From Nitrospirota bacterium (GTDB lineage Bacteria > Nitrospirota > Thermodesulfovibrionia > Thermodesulfovibrionales > Magnetobacteriaceae): a DNA stretch of 35,423 bases. Shown here one piece after another: positions 24,068-35,423 of the stretch; position 1 is the first letter of the stretch; the number at the start of each line of letters is the position of its first letter. Under the pieces are notes generated by a model. That model made no database searches. It worked only from the letters and a program-made list of their open reading frames with translations, and had not been told where the DNA came from. Where the stretch lies: positions 1 through 35,423 of the forward strand of contig JADFXO010000002.1 in the NCBI GenBank assembly GCA_015233485.1, given 5' to 3'. A program made the translations under genes and the position numbers.

Positions 24068-25333
24068 TTATTTTAGGCTGGTCATGTGATCTTTACCTGG
24101 CGTTGCACATTTCTGTATGCCCTTTCTCCAAGGGTGGTCATGCGCTGGTTTATGAATCGTTTTCACCCTCGAACGCCGTGTGTTTTGTCTTATTGGCAGT
24201 ACCATTATTTCTTTATAATTAAATGCTTTACCCCTATAAGATATAACCAATCTGCCGTCAAGCCATTTTTCCATTATGACTTTAACGGCCTTTGTTTTAT
24301 CCAAAACCTGATAGAATTTGTTGTCATACACAATTGTGAAATCATTTCTCAAAACCCTCTCAATCTTCTTGCACAGAACTCTTCTAATGTCCATACCTTC
24401 CGGCAACGCCCTATGTAAATCGCTCTCATCCCTGGCCTTGACGCTAAACTTCCTGTTGAATTCAGGCAAGTACTCCTCTAAAAAATTATTCCCTTCCTCA
24501 TTGCTCTTTATTCCCCTTAACCTCATTTCCTTTACTACTCTGTCCTGAAACGTTCTAAATAGCCTCTCTACTCTTCCTTTGGCCTGTGGCGAGTACGCAT
24601 GAAGCAGCTCTACCCCAAGCTCCTTTAAGGCACGACCAAACTCGCTCAAAAACTCTTCTCCTGACTCATCCAACCCCTTGGCCGTTGACTTATATGTCGT
24701 GTGCCTATCCACGTACATACTCATCGGTACCCCGTTGATTTCTATGTACCTCATGAAACTATCCATTGCCGGCACTGTCCCCTCATAATCGTAAAACCTC
24801 CCGTATACCTCAGATGTCGCATCATCTATATATCCCATCAACACACTCTTCGGCCCTCTGCCTTCATACCAATCATGATGTGAGCCGTCCATCTGTATCA
24901 TTTCACCTTTATGCCCCTTCCTCTGCCTCCATTGCCGATGTGCTCTGCTCTTGCGTGTCTTTTCCCATTCCCCCATCTCTATTACCCAATGCCGTAACGT
25001 CTCATCGCTTATCTCTATTCCTTCTACTTCCTTAAACTTTTCTGCCGCTAAGGTCGGACCAAATCCTTTATACTTCTCCTGATATATTACCTTTACTCGC
25101 GCCTTTAGCTCAGCCGAATAGCTCCTCACTGATTCCACCCCTCTCAGCTTATGCGGAATCCCAGCCGCTCCCTCTTCCTTAAACCTCTTTGCTATCCTCC
25201 TTATCTGTCTCTCGCTTATCCGTAACAACTCCGCCGCCTCGCTTTGCTTCAGGCTCCCTTCTTCCACTTTTCTCATCACATGCAACTTCTTCAAATCCCT
25301 CGCGTTTACCATTAGCATGTCCTCTTTGGCCAT
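24068..25333 (-). CDS. ISNCY-family (IS1202-like) DDE transposase with HTH and integrase core
   Basis: HTH SQEA-like region (KQSEAAELLRISERQIRRIAKRFKEEG), MIQMDGSHHDWYEGRG, YIDDATSEVYGRF, HAYSPQAKGRVERLFRTFQDRVVKEMRL. Start MAKEDMLM near 25333 preferred. Confidence 0.9.
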   Translation of the reverse strand: MAKEDMLMVNARDLKKLHVMRKVEEGSLKQSEAAELLRISERQIRRIAKRFKEEGAAGIPHKLRGVESVRSYSAELKARVKVIYQEKYKGFGPTLAAEKFKEVEGIEISDETLRHWVIEMGEWEKTRKSRAHRQWRQRKGHKGEMIQMDGSHHDWYEGRGPKSVLMGYIDDATSEVYGRFYDYEGTVPAMDSFMRYIEINGVPMSMYVDRHTTYKSTAKGLDESGEEFLSEFGRALKELGVELLHAYSPQAKGRVERLFRTFQDRVVKEMRLRGIKSNEEGNNFLEEYLPEFNRKFSVKARDESDLHRALPEGMDIRRVLCKKIERVLRNDFTIVYDNKFYQVLDKTKAVKVIMEKWLDGRLVISYRGKAFNYKEIMVLPIRQNTRRSRVKTIHKPAHDHPWRKGIQKCATPGKDHMTSLK

Positions 25334-25474
25334 TGTACCCTCTTTCCTTCTATGGTACAAAACGCCTCGATCTTTAGGACATTTCTACTTTGGTAGAATA
25401 GGACATTTCTATTTTGGTATTACACACTCCCGTGGACAGGGCCTAAGGGAATGAAATCACTGGCGTAAGGACAT

Positions 25475-26886: not shown

Positions 26887-26908
26887 GCATTCCGGTTTGC
26901 CCGGAATC
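26887..26908. repeat. Divergent REP-like palindrome
   Basis: gcattccggtttgcccggaatc. Confidence 0.5.
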
Positions 26909-26980
26909 TATTCCATGTTGTCTTACTAATGTATTCCTTAGTACTATTTAATATAGATTTTATATTATTTTATTTTTTAC

Positions 26981-27011
26981 TTGACAATTGGATATTCTTT
27001 TGCACTATAAT
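26981..27011 (+). promoter_or_regulatory. Candidate sigma70 promoter for the radical SAM cluster
   Basis: TTGACA (26981-26986), 19-nt spacer, TATAAT (27006-27011). The long spacer lowers confidence. Confidence 0.4.
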
Positions 27012-27017
27012 GATAAA

Positions 27018-27140
27018 ATGTTTATCTATAGATTAATAGCGAACCAGTGGAAGCATAGCAAGCGTGAGGACGTTTGTTACTATGGTCTCTGTTTCTTATT
27101 TATTGCAATGTTTATTATGTTACCTTGTTACATCTATAGG
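27018..27140 (+). CDS. Possible 40-aa leader or small membrane peptide ORF
   Basis: MFIYRLIANQWKHSKREDVCYYGLCFLFIAMFIMFTLLHL between the promoter and the first radical SAM gene; no clear RBS, below the ORF-track length. Confidence 0.2.
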
Positions 27141-27198
27141 ATAGTTCTATAAAACTTTTTTCAGATAAAGATTTATTATTAAAGAGGGGGGAACGTAA

Positions 27199-28545
27199 AT
27201 GGATTATGTAACTTCGCCGGTTAACAATATTCTAAGAAATCCGCTAAGAGTACTGAACCATTTGTATCTAATAAACAGAAAGTTGCAAATAGCAGGTAAA
27301 TGGTCGTTGATATGGAATGAAGATAGCTTAAATAAAGGTTCTAAACCTATAAAAGTTAGAGACATTGTTTTAGATTTGAAAGAAAATAAGATAGATGTAC
27401 AATCCGCCCTCAACGGAATCGAAAAAATTAACGATACAGAAGATAGTGATATATATCATGATTTGCTTGATTGTTATACTACCGGTTTACTTGAATTTCA
27501 TCCTACAGATAAGTGTGATTTATCTTGCATTGAGTGCCACTATAGAGGCAAAAAAGATGATACAATTCCGTTTTCTCAAGCAAGCAGGCTTTTAAAGGGC
27601 CTTTCACCGAAGGCTATAACCGTTACCGGTGGTGGAGAACCTAATGTTTACAGAAGCGAAACCAGGAATCTTAACGATCTCATTCTTGAGATAAAACAAG
27701 TTCTACCTGATACAAACATTGGTTTGATCAATAACAATACATATATTCCACCGGGAGACTGGACAAAACATATCGATTGGCAAAGATCATCAATAGATGC
27801 TTCTTCTCAAGATACATATTTAAAACTAAAAGGTGTGGATAAGTTTAATAATGTTATAGAGAACGTGAAAATACTTTTACATAATACAAATATTCCATTT
27901 GTCGGCATAGGGTTTCTTTACAGAAAAGAAAATGCACATGAGATTAGTCATTTTTTAGAATCCTGGTTTACACTGTTTAGAAATGAGCCGGAAGAGCTCA
28001 AGAGACGATTTAATATACAATTTAGACCTATACCACCATCTATCGAGAGTATAAAAAGTAAAGTCAAAGTAGATGATCTAACTAATAAATTACAAAATAT
28101 TTTAAATAGAGAAATAAATTATGTCATGGCTCTATCAGATAAGGATGTTAATTTCAAGGCATTTATTTTCAATAATACGAATTTCAGTTCACTTTTATCA
28201 AATCGAGACAACGTCAATATACCGTACTTACACGCCCCAAGTCAGTTTAAAAATTGTTATAATGCCCTGACGCACAGAGTACTAAGGGCGAATGGTGATG
28301 AGTACCCTGATTTTTTGTTATGTAATTCCCATGACTTATCTCTTGGAAATACGTTTAAAAACAATAGTGACGAAGAAAAGATAAAAATTTCATTAATGCA
28401 ATTTTATTTTTTTAATAGAGAGAGTATTTACTGCAACCCTGAAACATGTCGCCAGGGGTGGGTAAGTAAGACAGTCGAGGATTATTACAATGGTGTTTAT
28501 ACTATAGATACGATTGATAAAATCCCTCATAATTATTTTTTTTAA
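27199..28545 (+). CDS. Radical SAM protein 1
   Basis: CDLSCIEC (CX3CX2C), TVTGGGEPN; C-terminal Cys set (KNCYN, LLCNS, YCNPETC). Strong RBS gagggggg. Confidence 0.88.
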   Translation: MDYVTSPVNNILRNPLRVLNHLYLINRKLQIAGKWSLIWNEDSLNKGSKPIKVRDIVLDLKENKIDVQSALNGIEKINDTEDSDIYHDLLDCYTTGLLEFHPTDKCDLSCIECHYRGKKDDTIPFSQASRLLKGLSPKAITVTGGGEPNVYRSETRNLNDLILEIKQVLPDTNIGLINNNTYIPPGDWTKHIDWQRSSIDASSQDTYLKLKGVDKFNNVIENVKILLHNTNIPFVGIGFLYRKENAHEISHFLESWFTLFRNEPEELKRRFNIQFRPIPPSIESIKSKVKVDDLTNKLQNILNREINYVMALSDKDVNFKAFIFNNTNFSSLLSNRDNVNIPYLHAPSQFKNCYNALTHRVLRANGDEYPDFLLCNSHDLSLGNTFKNNSDEEKIKISLMQFYFFNRESIYCNPETCRQGWVSKTVEDYYNGVYTIDTIDKIPHNYFF

Positions 28546-28563
28546 TGATAATGGACAAATATT

Positions 28564-29976
28564 TTGAATAATTTAGATTACATCCACCTCGACAGCAAAG
28601 GTAATTTATATAAATCGTCATCCTTTGAGCTTATAAAATATTCACCCAACAAATCTACTGATGTTGATGCGCTTTTGAAGTCTTTCAGTAACAATCCATA
28701 TCAGGTTTTTTTTAAAACTCCATTCTCATTTATTTCATATTCATTTGACAATAAAATAATCAGCAGTTTTAAAGCACATCCAACAAGTTTCTATCCAGGC
28801 TCTCCATTCGACGTCTTTAATTCAGTAAAAAGCTATATTAAAGAACGGAAATTGGTTATCCCAAGGTTCTATTTATATCCCTCATCAAATTGCAATTCAA
28901 GATGTACTATATGCCAATTTAATTTTAGACGAAAAGCGCCTTCTTACATGAAGTTTGAGATCATAAAGAAAATAATAGACTATATGTCACGTCAAGAACC
29001 AAGGCCAATATTATTATCCTCTATTATTTCAGGTGACGGAGAACCCACACTTCATAATGATTTCAATAAAATAATCGAATATTATGCGGAGAATAACGTC
29101 AATATTTTTCTTACAAGTAACTGTATATTACCACATAACAAAAATGATATGATAATTGAAACAGTTGCACGCAATGTTTCCATGCTAACAATTTCTTTAA
29201 AAGGGTTAAATTCTCATGCATACCATCGTTACCAAGGCATAGATGAGAAAATGAAAACATTCGATCGTGTTATAAACAATATTGAAAGTTTACTGAAGAA
29301 GTTGGATAAATACAAGAGAAGAGACAAAATATTAATTGGAATTGCATCACTTATACTACCTGAGAATACCTATTTATATAGAATTATGATAGATTATTTT
29401 GTTTCACTTAAGTTAGATTATGTTTATCTTAACGTAGTAGAACCATCATATGAGAGATGGAGTATATATTTTACTGAGAAAGAAATTAGAGATACCTTGG
29501 AAAGTCTCCGCAGTATAAGTACTGATTATAAGAATTGCGGAACTTTAATAAGATTTCCTGCTAATCCTTTCAAAACAAGATATAATCACTCCGTATATTA
29601 CGATGCCGATATTAGAAAAGTTAAGAATACATGCGGGAGTGCTTTATGGAATCCAATAGCCATTCCAGGTAATAATAACAATGGCGTACTCCTTAGTTGC
29701 CGAAATAGTGAAAACTTTAACGATGAGAACTTTTGGTATTCATCCGATCTATACGGCGAAGAACTCTCTAATGTTATGGATAATAGCCGGATTGCTAAGG
29801 TGATGCAAGCTACGAGTAGTTGTCATCAATGCAGATTGGAAAGGCAGGTTAATCTCTTTGATAAAATTATAGATACAGAGTTAAGCAATAATTCAAGGGG
29901 CTCATTTATGTTAACCTTTGATGCAGGCATATTATCAAAACAAAATGGTGCAATTACTTTTGAAGAAACTTTATAA
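28564..29976 (+). CDS. Radical SAM protein 2
   Basis: TTG start; CNSRCTIC, ISGDGEPTLH; C-terminal NTCGSA, LLSCRN, SCHQCRLERQ. Confidence 0.88.
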   Translation: MNNLDYIHLDSKGNLYKSSSFELIKYSPNKSTDVDALLKSFSNNPYQVFFKTPFSFISYSFDNKIISSFKAHPTSFYPGSPFDVFNSVKSYIKERKLVIPRFYLYPSSNCNSRCTICQFNFRRKAPSYMKFEIIKKIIDYMSRQEPRPILLSSIISGDGEPTLHNDFNKIIEYYAENNVNIFLTSNCILPHNKNDMIIETVARNVSMLTISLKGLNSHAYHRYQGIDEKMKTFDRVINNIESLLKKLDKYKRRDKILIGIASLILPENTYLYRIMIDYFVSLKLDYVYLNVVEPSYERWSIYFTEKEIRDTLESLRSISTDYKNCGTLIRFPANPFKTRYNHSVYYDADIRKVKNTCGSALWNPIAIPGNNNNGVLLSCRNSENFNDENFWYSSDLYGEELSNVMDNSRIAKVMQATSSCHQCRLERQVNLFDKIIDTELSNNSRGSFMLTFDAGILSKQNGAITFEETL

Positions 29977-29990
29977 ATGAAACAACTAAA

Positions 29991-30854
29991 TTGAATAAAT
30001 CACAGAAAATAAAAAATCCTCTAATTATCTCTACCGGTATTTATAGACTTGCAAATGAAAAGGAGCCTAATTACGTTAATAATATATTGGAGTTTTATGC
30101 TGACCACGAGGCTTTAGTTGATATTATCGACGGAGTTGAACTAAATATAAGAACACCTGAAATTATGGAAACACTAATATTATCAGATAAATCAACAAAT
30201 TTTCTTCAATCATTGAATCATAACACTTTGCATTATTTTTATTTTTCTTTTTTTACTTTTAATCAAGACAACCAGCTTTCTCCAAAGGACTTTGAGTACA
30301 TCGACAAATTAAAATCCATCAATGATAAAATACATTTCAGATCCGTTGTAATACATCCATTTCCATACAACGAAAAGGAAGTACTGATGTTGTACAAAAT
30401 TTTTCATGATAAACTCGATATACCTGTCTTTAACTTTGAGAGCATGTTAAGAGATATTGATATTAATAATACAGATTTTGAAAGATTATTTGTCGATGAA
30501 AATATAGGACTCCTGTTGGATGCTTCTCATGCAGTTGCAGCACACACCAGCAACTCTTTATATACCTTTGAGTATTTAAAGCCTTTTTTTGATAGAATAT
30601 CTTACCTGCATATTAGTTCAACAAGAAGAGATCTGGCATATTACGATAATACTGGTTTCTTTTGCCCTTCAAAAGGCCACTCAATGTTTATTGAAACGAA
30701 TTCAGAAGACCTAATATTATTCGATAAAGTATTTGAATTTATAGAAAACAAACCGTTTCTCGGACTCATTTTGGAACAGTGCATAAAAGAAAAGGATATA
30801 GGTCCTCTCATAAAAGAAATTCATTTCATAAAGAAGCATTTTCTGCAGATATGA
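29991..30854 (+). CDS. TIM-barrel protein, sugar-phosphate isomerase / AP endonuclease-2-like
   Basis: TTG start. LLLDASHAVAA, YLHISSTRRD, SKGHSMF, LGLILEQ resemble metal-ligand strands of xylose-isomerase-like TIM barrels. Confidence 0.6.
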   Translation: MNKSQKIKNPLIISTGIYRLANEKEPNYVNNILEFYADHEALVDIIDGVELNIRTPEIMETLILSDKSTNFLQSLNHNTLHYFYFSFFTFNQDNQLSPKDFEYIDKLKSINDKIHFRSVVIHPFPYNEKEVLMLYKIFHDKLDIPVFNFESMLRDIDINNTDFERLFVDENIGLLLDASHAVAAHTSNSLYTFEYLKPFFDRISYLHISSTRRDLAYYDNTGFFCPSKGHSMFIETNSEDLILFDKVFEFIENKPFLGLILEQCIKEKDIGPLIKEIHFIKKHFLQI

Positions 30855-32257
30855 TGAATCAGAATAATTTAGTTGCTAATTTTAATTTTGGTGTCAGCGA
30901 ATCAAACAGATATTTTAGAATCTACAATGATTCTATTCAACAAATAACGTTTGACCAAATATCACCAATAGAAAAGAAAATACTAAATCCCTCAATAAGA
31001 AACAGATTCCTTAACACCTACAACAAACTCCTTTTCATCGATATTAACAGTAACGTCATACTCGGCTCGAAAGATACCGACTTTACAAGTTTTTATCCTT
31101 CTAGCCACTTTGATTTCATTAATGGCATAAATCAGTTCATTAATAATGAATTTCCATTACCCGCCAAGCTATTTATCAATCCAACCAATAAATGCAATTA
31201 TCGTTGCCAGGTCTGTTCCTTTAATCCTACCAGAGGTATAAAGGGTACAAACAGTATGCCTGTTTATATTATAGAAGAGATTATCGATATTTTTAAAAAA
31301 CGTTCACCAAACGCATCAATTAATATTTCAGGTGGTGGTGAACCAACCTTGCATAAAGATATTGAGTACATATTACAATTAATAAACGATTCGGATATAA
31401 AGATATTCATGACATCCAACGCAAGCAGATCAGATAAGAATTTCTGGAAGACTGCTGTCAGGGCGTGTTCAATGCTGGTTTTTTCCGTAAGAGGCCTTAC
31501 ATTAGATAACTATAAAGCTATCGATAACCCAGCAAATAAAGATACCGATATCAACAAAGTTATTTCTAATATAGAGATGATAATTGATTTAAGGGAAAAA
31601 AATCGAAGAACCGAAGATTTGATAATCGGCATCAATTCATTGGTACACCCCTTAAACGCCGGACATTTTTATAATTTTTCAAAAAAGATGGTTGAAATAG
31701 GAATAGATTTTCTGCATTTTACTCCTGTGGCTCCCAACTTGTCAAAATGGAATATTGACATAGATGAAAAGCAGAGGGATCTCACAGACCGTAATTTTAA
31801 TGAAATAAATGAAATTGTTTCTAAAAGTAAGATTAAAATAAGACTTCCTAAAATACCTTATAAAGATCTCTCAGGAGATAACTATTATTTAGATGTTACA
31901 AGCAGACATGGACAAAGAAATGGTTGTTATGTTGCACTTTTTTCACCCGCACTAGTACCTTCTGAAGTGGATCCTTTAAAAGCCAAGCTCTCACCATGCA
32001 GAGCATCCGAAGTACAGGATAACAATCTACTTTCGTATAGTAATGATATTGTAAAGGGTAGTTATGCCGGAATATGGAATTATGATAATTACCTCAGAGT
32101 CCAGTCTATGATTAAAGGGAAATGTTCTTATTGCTATATGGAGAGACAATATCTCGATCTTAAATTCATGGTAGATATTAAAAGTAAATATGGCTCAAAA
32201 GGCGAGTTTGTGTTATTATTTGATTTAATGGACAAAACAAGCGTACAATATTTTTAA
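30851..32257 (+). CDS. Radical SAM protein 3, paralogue of protein 2
   Basis: CNYRCQVC, ISGGGEPTLHKD; C-terminal NGCYVA, LSPCRA, CSYCYMERQ. ATGA overlap with the TIM-barrel stop; start 30851 preferred over 30779. Confidence 0.88.
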   Translation: MMNQNNLVANFNFGVSESNRYFRIYNDSIQQITFDQISPIEKKILNPSIRNRFLNTYNKLLFIDINSNVILGSKDTDFTSFYPSSHFDFINGINQFINNEFPLPAKLFINPTNKCNYRCQVCSFNPTRGIKGTNSMPVYIIEEIIDIFKKRSPNASINISGGGEPTLHKDIEYILQLINDSDIKIFMTSNASRSDKNFWKTAVRACSMLVFSVRGLTLDNYKAIDNPANKDTDINKVISNIEMIIDLREKNRRTEDLIIGINSLVHPLNAGHFYNFSKKMVEIGIDFLHFTPVAPNLSKWNIDIDEKQRDLTDRNFNEINEIVSKSKIKIRLPKIPYKDLSGDNYYLDVTSRHGQRNGCYVALFSPALVPSEVDPLKAKLSPCRASEVQDNNLLSYSNDIVKGSYAGIWNYDNYLRVQSMIKGKCSYCYMERQYLDLKFMVDIKSKYGSKGEFVLLFDLMDKTSVQYF

Positions 32258-32291
32258 ATGATATTAATTAAAATTCTTATAGGAGTCAATA

Positions 32292-34565
32292 TTGAGTACA
32301 GAATTAGAGCAATCTATACAACAAGAATTTATCAATAAGTATAAGATAACAAATAATAGAGATGCCAAGAATCTATTTTTTAAAGAACTTTTAACAACTT
32401 CACAAGACAATGGTTTGTCTAAAAAATATGAGAACTGTTTTAACGGATATATTAACTGGATAAATGGTGAAATTAACACTGCTAAAAAGCATTTTAAGGC
32501 ATCTCTTATTATTGACGAGAAATTCCCTCTTTCACTATACGGTTTAGGTGTAATATTTCACAAATTAAGAGATACTGAGCTTGCCTTGGAATTTTTTAAA
32601 AGACTGAAAGGCATAAGAGAGTTCTCATCGTATGCGTTTAATGCTTTAGGAAATATGTATCGAGATGCTAAAGCTTTTAATATTGCGATTTACTGTTATA
32701 AAGAATCTGTCAAACGTGACAATAACTTCTCATATCCACATAATGGATTAGGTATTGTTTATTATAAAATATTTAAGTATAACGAAGCTATAGATCATTC
32801 ACTTAAAAGCTTAGAGATAGATGATAACTTTGCATATCCATGGGACAACCTGGGTAATATTTTACGAGACACAGGCCATTATAAAGAAGCTGATAAATGT
32901 TATAGAATTGCCATTTCAAAGGATAACTGGCTTTCACCAGCAAATGCCCATTATGCAATGTCACAATTACATAATCCTAAAAAGATTGAGGAAGCTAAGA
33001 AAAAACTTGATAAGGCTATTGTATGTTGCAACGCAGAGGGTAATATTTACTATGCCGAAGAATATAAATCGTTGTTTATTAATTATGAAAAGAAAATAAA
33101 TATAACAAATAAACGTAAGTCATCATTTGAAACAGGTTCTATATCAACACTTGATGAAATATTGCACGAAACTTATAGCCAGCATATAGATGAGTATGCT
33201 GCGAGAAACATCGCTCTTTCTTCAGCGTTTCTTGACTATAAATATGATAATGAAGAAAGCGAATATAGTTTTGAAGTATTAAGGAGATGGAATTCTTATA
33301 CACCTATAATAGCAAATAATTATCATATAAGTAAAGGTGGCGGTTATTTCCTTAAAGTAGGTGGAAAAGGAATAGTTATCGATCCCGGCCTTAACTTTAT
33401 TGATAATTTTCAAGGATCCGGCCATAGTTTTTGTGAAATTGATTTTGTTTTAATCTCTCATGCCCACAACGATCATACTGCTGATTTTGAATCTATATTA
33501 ACTTTACTTTATAAATACAATGATAGAATTAAGGGTACTGACGATAAATTGAAAGAGCCTACTATGTTGCATAAAATAGCAAGAACAGAACAAAAGTCAT
33601 CTTATGATATAAATGAAAACGAAAGAAACGAGGAGTTTAAAAAGTCAGATAGAAGGAAAATTATAAATTTTTATATTACTGAAAGTGTATATAGAAAATA
33701 TGTTGGGATGTTAGAGTTAAAGTCATCGGTCGACTATAATATTCACGTTATAGAAAGGGGAGATGAATTTAACTTAAATATAAATAACAAAAACAACTCT
33801 AATTCAAACATTAAAGTTAAGGTTCTTGATGCAAATCATAACGATATAATATCTGATAGACATTCTGTAGGATATCTGTTAACCATTAATAATAAAATCA
33901 TTATTTATACGGGGGATACGAGTTGGACTCCAGAAATCGAACAACAGTATAAAGTTATACATGACCAATATAAAGAAAAACAAAGCATATCTAAAGATGA
34001 AACAATTTTATTAGTTGCTCATTTAGGAGGATTTCAAGATAGTGAAATAGATTACGATGGTAAATATGATAAAAATATTTTTTATAAAAACCATCTTGGA
34101 CGGTTAGGATTAGCGAAATTAATTGAAACATTAGAACCTGATATCTGTTTTATATCAGAATTTGGAGAAGAGTTTGCTGAGAAAAGGGAAGAAATTACAG
34201 ATATTTACCGGATAGCTTTCAGTAAAATAGACAATTTAAAAGAAACTATTTTTCTACCCGCCGATATTGGTCTCGAATTAGAGTTAACAAATAAAAAAAT
34301 TAAAGCCATTAATGATATCAATAACAATAATATAGAATATGATCATGTCGATCCGTCTAAAGTTAAAACAATCTTATTGATAAATGATTATTCTCTTCAT
34401 TATTATAATAGTGATACAATTACTAATGAACGGAAATTGAGTCAAGTTCTCACAAACGACTACGATTTTAAAAGAAAAAACTATTTAGACATAAACAATA
34501 GAAATATTGATATAAAAAAGATCAGATCACTTATAAGCAAGTACGAATCCAATATAGACACATAA
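32292..34565 (+). CDS. TPR-repeat / metallo-beta-lactamase-fold fusion protein
   Basis: TTG start with aggag RBS. TPR units (YGLGVIFHKLRDTELALEFFKRL, NALGNMYRDAKAFNIAIYCYKESVK, DNLGNILRDTGHYKEADKCYRIA) then ISHAHNDHTADF, DANHND, IIYTGDTSW. Confidence 0.85.
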   Translation: MSTELEQSIQQEFINKYKITNNRDAKNLFFKELLTTSQDNGLSKKYENCFNGYINWINGEINTAKKHFKASLIIDEKFPLSLYGLGVIFHKLRDTELALEFFKRLKGIREFSSYAFNALGNMYRDAKAFNIAIYCYKESVKRDNNFSYPHNGLGIVYYKIFKYNEAIDHSLKSLEIDDNFAYPWDNLGNILRDTGHYKEADKCYRIAISKDNWLSPANAHYAMSQLHNPKKIEEAKKKLDKAIVCCNAEGNIYYAEEYKSLFINYEKKINITNKRKSSFETGSISTLDEILHETYSQHIDEYAARNIALSSAFLDYKYDNEESEYSFEVLRRWNSYTPIIANNYHISKGGGYFLKVGGKGIVIDPGLNFIDNFQGSGHSFCEIDFVLISHAHNDHTADFESILTLLYKYNDRIKGTDDKLKEPTMLHKIARTEQKSSYDINENERNEEFKKSDRRKIINFYITESVYRKYVGMLELKSSVDYNIHVIERGDEFNLNINNKNNSNSNIKVKVLDANHNDIISDRHSVGYLLTINNKIIIYTGDTSWTPEIEQQYKVIHDQYKEKQSISKDETILLVAHLGGFQDSEIDYDGKYDKNIFYKNHLGRLGLAKLIETLEPDICFISEFGEEFAEKREEITDIYRIAFSKIDNLKETIFLPADIGLELELTNKKIKAINDINNNNIEYDHVDPSKVKTILLINDYSLHYYNSDTITNERKLSQVLTNDYDFKRKNYLDINNRNIDIKKIRSLISKYESNIDT

Positions 34566-34603
34566 TAATTTATTACGCCATCATAATAATAAAGGGATCT
34601 GAT

Positions 34604-35065
34604 ATGCCTGAAACAAGCAATAATATATTCAGAGGAACAATATACTCGGCAGGATGGTGCGATGAATTTAAGAAGGAATTTAATGATTATCTAAATTCCT
34701 CACTTGTTATACATCAGAATAATGCAAATCATACCGAGGATAGCAAAAGAGAAATTATTCATAAGGTCTTTGAATATATCAATGTCGTAAACAAACTAAA
34801 ACATCCAAATAATTTTCTTTTTTACTCAGATAAAAAGTTGCCTTCCGCTTTTACTTATGGTGTTGAAGCAAAATCGATTCTTTCTGATAAGTACTTGTAT
34901 TGCTCAAACATTTCCTTTCTCGTTCAATCTCTTCTCGCTGACTTCCAGATAACTACAGAGTTGATGGTTACACTCATTAATAATATTCACATAACCGAAA
35001 AAGGCGAGAAATTGTTCTATAACGATAGATATTGGGGAGAGAAAATAAGACATTTATATGTTTAA
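34604..35065 (+). CDS. Hypothetical protein, last gene of the cluster
   Basis: 153-aa ORF, ATG after agggatctg, same strand and composition as the cluster. Confidence 0.55.
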   Translation: MPETSNNIFRGTIYSAGWCDEFKKEFNDYLNSSLVIHQNNANHTEDSKREIIHKVFEYINVVNKLKHPNNFLFYSDKKLPSAFTYGVEAKSILSDKYLYCSNISFLVQSLLADFQITTELMVTLINNIHITEKGEKLFYNDRYWGEKIRHLYV

Positions 35066-35423
35066 AACCAAACCCTGCTTTATTGATAGTCACGACATCG
35101 GTTCCTTTATCGAACTTATTGTCCTTAAAAAAAATATCTCTGATCTTGTCCGCAGGCAGAATCGAAAGAAATTTACCGTTATATTTATCTCTTTTTAAAT
35201 AATTAAAATAGTATTTTAGAGATCTCGACGATTGCTCGTATTGATTTTTCTGAAAGATCATTAGCTCCTTTGTCCAGGATGATCTTTCTTTTGCTTCATT
35301 TTCTAATAAGGAAAGTTCTTTAAAAGATAAAGTATTTACAGGTATTCCACTACTATACCCAATATTTTGCAATGTATTATCGGACCATCTATTATAAGGT
35401 ATGCTTCTATCGATGACAAGCTC
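34977..35423 (-). CDS. Hypothetical protein, partial at right edge
   Basis: Open frame runs to the window edge (ELVIDRSIPYNRWSDNTLQNIGYSSGIPVNTLSF...). Overlaps the convergent 34604 ORF by 89 nt. Confidence 0.45.
   Translation of the reverse strand, partial: ELVIDRSIPYNRWSDNTLQNIGYSSGIPVNTLSFKELSLLENEAKERSSWTKELMIFQKNQYEQSSRSLKYYFNYLKRDKYNGKFLSILPADKIRDIFFKDNKFDKGTDVVTINKAGFGFKHINVLFSLPNIYRYRTISRLFRLCEYY

Follow-up and report, generated by a model that had tools for sequence, protein, structure and literature searches.

An unnamed family of TPR-metallo-beta-lactamase proteins with an apparently RNase Z-like catalytic layout, one member of which lies beside a radical SAM cassette

The window, the whole 35,423-nucleotide stretch of Nitrospirota DNA that was analysed, contains a gene whose product fuses a TPR array to a metallo-beta-lactamase (MBL) domain and which adjoins a run of radical SAM (rSAM) genes (Table 1). 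On the best explanation, over which our confidence is evenly divided, this TPR-MBL protein would be a mobile, self-contained, TPR-regulated and RNase Z-like phosphodiesterase, standing beside an rSAM cassette to which it has no conserved link. About 30 homologues define an unnamed MBL family with members in Nitrospirota, Desulfobacterota, Planctomycetota, Bacillota, Altarchaeota and other groups. As the original prediction had supposed, the fusion has no named family in Pfam, NCBIfam, PADLOC or the papers searched; the literature searched contains no description of TPR-MBL, of DGQHR with rSAM and MBL, or of DpdB with rSAM.

Table 1. Coordinates of the TPR-MBL gene, its features and its neighbours in the window (fractions give conservation among family members)
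Feature	Position	Strand	Remarks
Low-GC (0.30) island	26900..35423		GC drop at ~26900; contig ends at 35423, inside the island
rSAM1 (CX3CX2C)	27199..28545	+	Radical_SAM E 1.3e-3, below Pfam cut-off
rSAM2	28564..29976	+	Radical_SAM 1.7e-14
Xylose isomerase-like TIM barrel protein	29991..30854	+	Weak: Pfam AP_endonuc_2 0.011; 69% homologue in L059
rSAM3, rSAM2 paralogue (31%)	30779..32257	+	Radical_SAM match; ORF overlaps the preceding one
TPR-MBL protein	32292..34565	+	757 aa; TTG start, AGGAG a few bases upstream
TPR/TPR-like helical hairpins, residues 2-248	32295..33035	+	Pfam TPR_1 6e-19; AlphaFold2 secondary structure
Two long linker helices from TPR to MBL, residues 252-314	33045..33233	+	AlphaFold2, lower confidence there
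Signature RRWNSYTP, residues 331-338	33282..33305	+	Just before MBL core; R331 30/31, W333 30/31, S335 31/31
HAHNDH metal motif (H390, H392, D394, H395)	33459..33476	+	31/31 conserved
Lysine-rich insertion, residues 411-455	33522..33656	+	Clade-specific, poorly conserved
His516, motif III metal ligand	33837..33839	+	31/31
Asp542 of TGDT, bridging ligand position	33915..33917	+	31/31
His601 of NHLG, in the position of the proton-donor His of the HST motif in RNase Z	34092..34094	+	31/31; spacing as in L066
SEFGEE, with Glu623 in the position of the motif V metal His of RNase Z	34155..34172	+	E623 31/31
153-aa ORF 3′ of TPR-MBL	34604..35065	+	No family match

Architecture and catalytic residues of the TPR-MBL protein

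The protein is a member of the metallo-beta-lactamase superfamily and, by profile and helical hairpins, a TPR protein. Its C-terminal part matches Lactamase_B_2 (47.1 against a Pfam cut-off of 27, E 3e-12), Lactamase_B is also found (29.4 against 22.7), and TPR_1 scores 67.4 bits over four stretches (cut-off 27.8, E 6e-19), with Pfam-supported repeats at residues ~77-211. An AlphaFold2 model, for which the input alignment was 19 homologues (mean pLDDT 82.8, pTM 0.71), begins with six to seven helical hairpins, which two long helices connect to an MBL fold. Pfam and the model uphold the fusion that had been predicted, whereas the predicted count of four to five TPR units was slightly lower than that of the modelled hairpins. 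Also present are the expected HAHNDH (residues 390-395), ANHND histidine (His516) and YTGDTSW (Asp542), and the long lysine-rich insertion after the first metal motif is real (residues ~411-455).

The N-terminal arm varies widely, with TPR numbers among family members ranging from 0 to more than 10. Three homologues (L027, L032 and L060) carry arrays of at least 10 repeats, and in L029, L034, L061, L036 and L039 the N-terminal regions span ~45-85 residues in which TPR is not recognisable. One 1197-aa member (L062:6676-10269) appears to have a P-loop-like N-terminus instead; it adjoins an oppositely oriented group of putative rSAM, PqqD-like and asparagine synthase-like genes that reads as lasso-peptide-like. 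Only one clade (100/100 support), comprising the window, L017-L020, L032, L027 and L028, has the lysine-rich insertion, whose mean pairwise identity there is 0.26 versus 0.77 for the catalytic core that precedes it. Being clade-specific and poorly conserved, the insertion probably does not hold the key to function.

Eight putative metal or catalytic positions (H390, H392, D394, H395, H516, D542, H601 and E623) are invariant in all 31 members of the family alignment, some of which share just ~25% identity with the window's MBL domain; metal ligands are thus not lost among the homologues. H577 is conserved in 30 of the 31. The motifs common to the family are R-x-W-N-S-Y-T-P, GGGYF, DPG, HxHxDH, K469, H516, T-G-D-T, H577, NHLG and SEFGEE.

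Judged from sequence and model, the catalytic layout appears to be kept, with the last metal histidine (RNase Z motif V) swapped for Glu623. This residue lies 22 positions after His601, and the identical ungapped spacing is found in an RNase Z-like protein from the same genome (L066), which has NHL...ITH where the window protein has NHL...ISE. A PhnP-like protein aligned with the family has a histidine at the Glu623 column, and the AlphaFold2 model has a helix after H601 followed by a strand carrying E623, the order expected of RNase Z. From the spacing, the one PhnP-like alignment and the helix-strand order we infer that Glu623 is the motif V equivalent and, by extension, a putative metal ligand. 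MAFFT alignments against the RNase Z-like protein gave mixed and inconsistent partners for Glu623, and when the family was compared with one RNase Z-like protein by hhalign, the alignment covered the HxHxDH region alone, ending short of motif V. In RNase Z the histidine of the HST motif is described as the proton donor (PMC3161902).

The closest PDB folds are RNase Z/ELAC (1zkp, 1y44), AtsA-type arylsulfatase (8gyg), PhnP diphosphatase, YhfI and Apyc1, and a sequence profile search also yields 8gyg (E 1.4e-13) and Apyc1. With RNase Z/ELAC (tRNase Z) and the AtsA-type enzymes the protein shares the MBL fold, HxHxDH, the motif III His, the motif IV Asp and an HST-like His. Unlike RNase Z/ELAC, it has the RWNSYTP signature, a TPR array and, in all 31 members, Glu623 for the motif V His (an equivalence that we derive from the L066 spacing and the PhnP-like alignment); its NCBIfam RNase_Z score is 27.5 bits against a cut-off of 292.95. 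Apyc1, an anti-Pycsar cyclic nucleotide phosphodiesterase, has a related fold and a weak sequence match, but it lacks TPRs and the window protein scores 13.9 on Pfam Anti-Pycsar_Apyc1, against a cut-off of 50.

A further comparison is offered by HamM (Hachiman) and Avs1a (AVAST), MBL nuclease-protease pairs in which ComEC-type-like nucleases are gated by a neighbouring trypsin-like protease; these trypsin- and caspase-gated MBL nucleases are of another type than the TPR-MBL family (PMC12799240). The likeness lies in an MBL hydrolase found in mobile or defence settings, with insertions near the active site, whereas the TPR-MBL protein has no PADLOC match and a fold that fits RNase Z. No trypsin- or caspase-like protease gene lies beside the TPR-MBL gene, whose neighbours encode rSAM, TIM barrel-like and family-less products. 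Among 11 homologues PADLOC gave just single matches, to PDC-M48B and CARF. Every NCBIfam match of the window protein was far below cut-off, and PHROGs returned a general metal-dependent hydrolase only.

Distribution and genomic settings of the family

Eleven strong homologues, the window's own counted, were present among 101 genomes drawn from relatives and the window's phylum. A scan of genome contigs added members from Desulfobacterota, Planctomycetota including Brocadia, Bacillota, Candidatus Altarchaeum, Geobacteraceae and others, and a scan of viral contigs added one more, beside an integrase; no MBL homologue was found in plasmid and phage collections. Fragments and ordinary MBL proteins (L044-L049) were excluded from the family; one and the same gene is represented by L025 and L036. 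Occurrence is rare and patchy, since only 4 of 297 sampled genomes from the Desulfogranum phylum and 4 of 294 from the Brocadia phylum gave matches. Members from Nitrospirota, Desulfobacterales and Bacillota fall together in the window's own clade, which has 100/100 support.

The gene usually stands alone. At 26 of 32 loci it has a lower GC content than its flanks (mean difference -0.063, Wilcoxon p 1.6e-5), and neighbours across the loci include a phage integrase (L050), a transposase gene (L018), HigB (L019), ParE (L028), YafQ (L033) and DUF5615/PIN (L034). Taken together, phylogeny, composition and neighbours indicate a scattered family that moves horizontally as a mobile gene.

One branch has a more regular setting. 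In the TPR-less clade of L029, L034 and L061 (support 100/98), an operon recurs (L029:3564-11077, L034:4928-12470, L061:8338-14845) in which the MBL gene is accompanied by a DpdB/DndB-like gene and an rSAM gene. The DpdB/DndB-like proteins share 38-50% identity across the three loci, with PADLOC DpdB matches of ~1e-36 in L029 and L034, and the rSAM proteins appear to carry an N-terminal segment of B12-binding type. A GHKL ATPase gene is common to L029 and L061 (33%). Alongside the operon lie an Mrr endonuclease gene in L061, a HerA-like gene with a mads_8 match in L029, and a DpdE/ZorD-like SNF2 helicase gene with ParB-like genes in L034. The DpdB-like component and the SNF2 helicase recall the Dpd (7-deazapurine DNA) systems; unlike these, the window gene has neither DpdA nor DpdB among the neighbours scanned. 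In the stretches examined of this clade's operons, DpdA was not recognised, so that of the two L029 and L034 have just the DpdB-like gene. The operon is a candidate for an undescribed restriction, defence or DNA-modification locus.

The radical SAM neighbourhood

The GC content of the window falls from ~0.5 to 0.30 at ~26900 and stays low to the contig end, compared with ~0.48 for the rest. A transposase-like gene (24068-25360, minus strand), with HTH domains recognised by Pfam and a remainder judged DDE-like by eye, lies near the left edge of this island. At the other end, a reverse ORF (34977-35423) overlaps the end of the 153-aa ORF, and there the contig stops; no homologue of the 153-aa ORF adjoins the TPR-MBL genes of L017-L026.

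The predicted radical SAM gene context was confirmed: three genes with Radical_SAM matches (starting at 27199, 28564 and 30779) belong to a closely packed, co-directional run that includes the TPR-MBL gene, with gaps of 14-38 bases between most genes. Translation of rSAM3 probably begins at an ATG near 30851. Between rSAM3 and the TPR-MBL gene the gap is 34 bases, with no + strand terminator predicted, and a local operon or functional link with rSAM3 is possible.

The cassette of rSAM1, rSAM2 and the TIM barrel gene was in none of the other homologous MBL loci examined. It recurs in genome G010 (L059:7497-11251) at 75%, 70% and 69% identity, without rSAM3 and without an MBL gene. The cassette is low in GC and conserved in two genomes of the window's taxonomic family; in L059 it is flanked by a pair of similar DUF4062/NB-ARC-like/TPR genes, of which one is shortened. 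A distant rSAM1 relative (29-30%) in L071 (genome G379) belongs to another cluster type and likewise lacks MBL. Because the cassette is absent from the other MBL loci examined and both further rSAM1 loci lack MBL, the link between TPR-MBL and rSAM is not conserved, and on gene order the neighbourhood is a one-off in this genome that points to no conserved partnership.

For rSAM2, the plasmid collection gave just partial matches of 25-27%, on two plasmids, and the phage collection gave none. Assignment of rSAM2 and rSAM3 as viperins was rejected, the matches being weak (PADLOC 1.6e-16; NCBIfam viperin 50.2 against a cut-off of 180). An apparent enrichment of rSAM near MBL genes (9 of 145 near genes versus 1 of 173 far genes) was discarded, as the rSAM queries had been drawn from those neighbourhoods.

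Proposed function and competing explanations

The TPR-MBL protein could be a working part of the rSAM cluster, its TPRs holding a peptide or protein product that the MBL domain cleaves, releases or detoxifies. MBL proteins are found in some rSAM pathways. Co-direction, the mostly 14-38-base gaps, the equally low GC and the lack of a predicted terminator after rSAM3 speak for this role, as does the recurrence of the TPR-less clade with a different rSAM gene. However, those rSAM genes have no match to the window's at E 1e-4, no precursor peptide family was recognised beside the rSAM genes (short ORFs were screened shallowly), and the cassette occurs in no other homologous locus examined, with L059 and L071 lacking MBL. 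The original proposal that the MBL domain acts on an rSAM product therefore found no support in these loci; such a hydrolase role is less likely, and we rate this explanation as improbable. Fainter still is the case for a hydrolase with a housekeeping or signalling role in sporadic bacteria, acting for instance with two-component or cell-envelope proteins. In L025/L036 and L026 a TPR-less MBL gene lies directly 3′ of a response regulator gene (L025:1700-4549, L026:7579-10609); the two regulators are 49.6% identical to each other and appear to combine HD-GYP-like and TPR-like segments, and the L026 neighbours include MoxR-type AAA and vWA. Against this, the family differs from core genes in being rare, patchy and mostly GC-poor.

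The defence settings raise a different alternative, in which the protein would be a component of a DNA-modification or restriction-type defence system, or a stand-alone one, with the MBL domain as nuclease and the TPRs as sensor, following the logic of other TPR-sensor effectors. This is consistent with the TPR-less homologues in the DpdB-like/rSAM operon, variously accompanied by GHKL, HerA-like, SNF2 and Mrr partners (L029, L034, L061), and with the mobile-element neighbours, including the homologue next to an integrase in a viral contig. Yet such partners are absent from the window and most TPR-bearing members, and no known system matches, so that we consider this alternative rather unlikely. 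The broader proposal of a mobile immune or conflict effector family, pairing a TPR sensor with an RNase Z-like nuclease that carries Glu, and with one branch in a DpdB-like/rSAM/GHKL restriction-type operon, is doubtful but worth entertaining. As the window protein has no PADLOC match and its homologues are mostly solitary, it is genomic context that makes a defence role plausible, and the protein may act in this way.

The preferred explanation, of a mobile and self-contained phosphodiesterase, envisages an enzyme of two modules that was acquired by horizontal transfer. Its TPR solenoid would serve in recognition or regulation, and its C-terminal domain would be an MBL phosphodiesterase of the RNase Z/ELAC-like kind. 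HxHxDH, H516 and D542 would form a dinuclear metal site in which Glu623 replaces the usual last His, with H601 as the likely proton donor. A protein partner bound to the TPRs would position or activate hydrolysis of a phosphodiester substrate, which may be RNA, DNA or a nucleotide. The gene would most likely be mobile cargo of a stress or defence type, which in the window's genome would have been carried into the low-GC island next to the rSAM cassette, without a conserved link. We favour a phosphodiesterase because phosphodiesters or nucleotides are the substrates of several fold neighbours and phosphodiester chemistry would suit the invariant His601; the assignment is not certain, and the RNase Z-like fold group also includes sulfatases and other hydrolases.

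These results correct the idea that the TPR-MBL gene serves the adjacent radical SAM pathway. The DpdB-like/rSAM/MBL operon of its TPR-less relatives points to an undescribed locus of restriction or DNA-modification type. If the present reading is true, enzyme and regulator would lie in one chain and be easy to test. As a TPR-controlled nuclease or phosphodiesterase, the protein would represent an unnamed branch of MBL hydrolases with an altered metal site, spread across bacteria and archaea.
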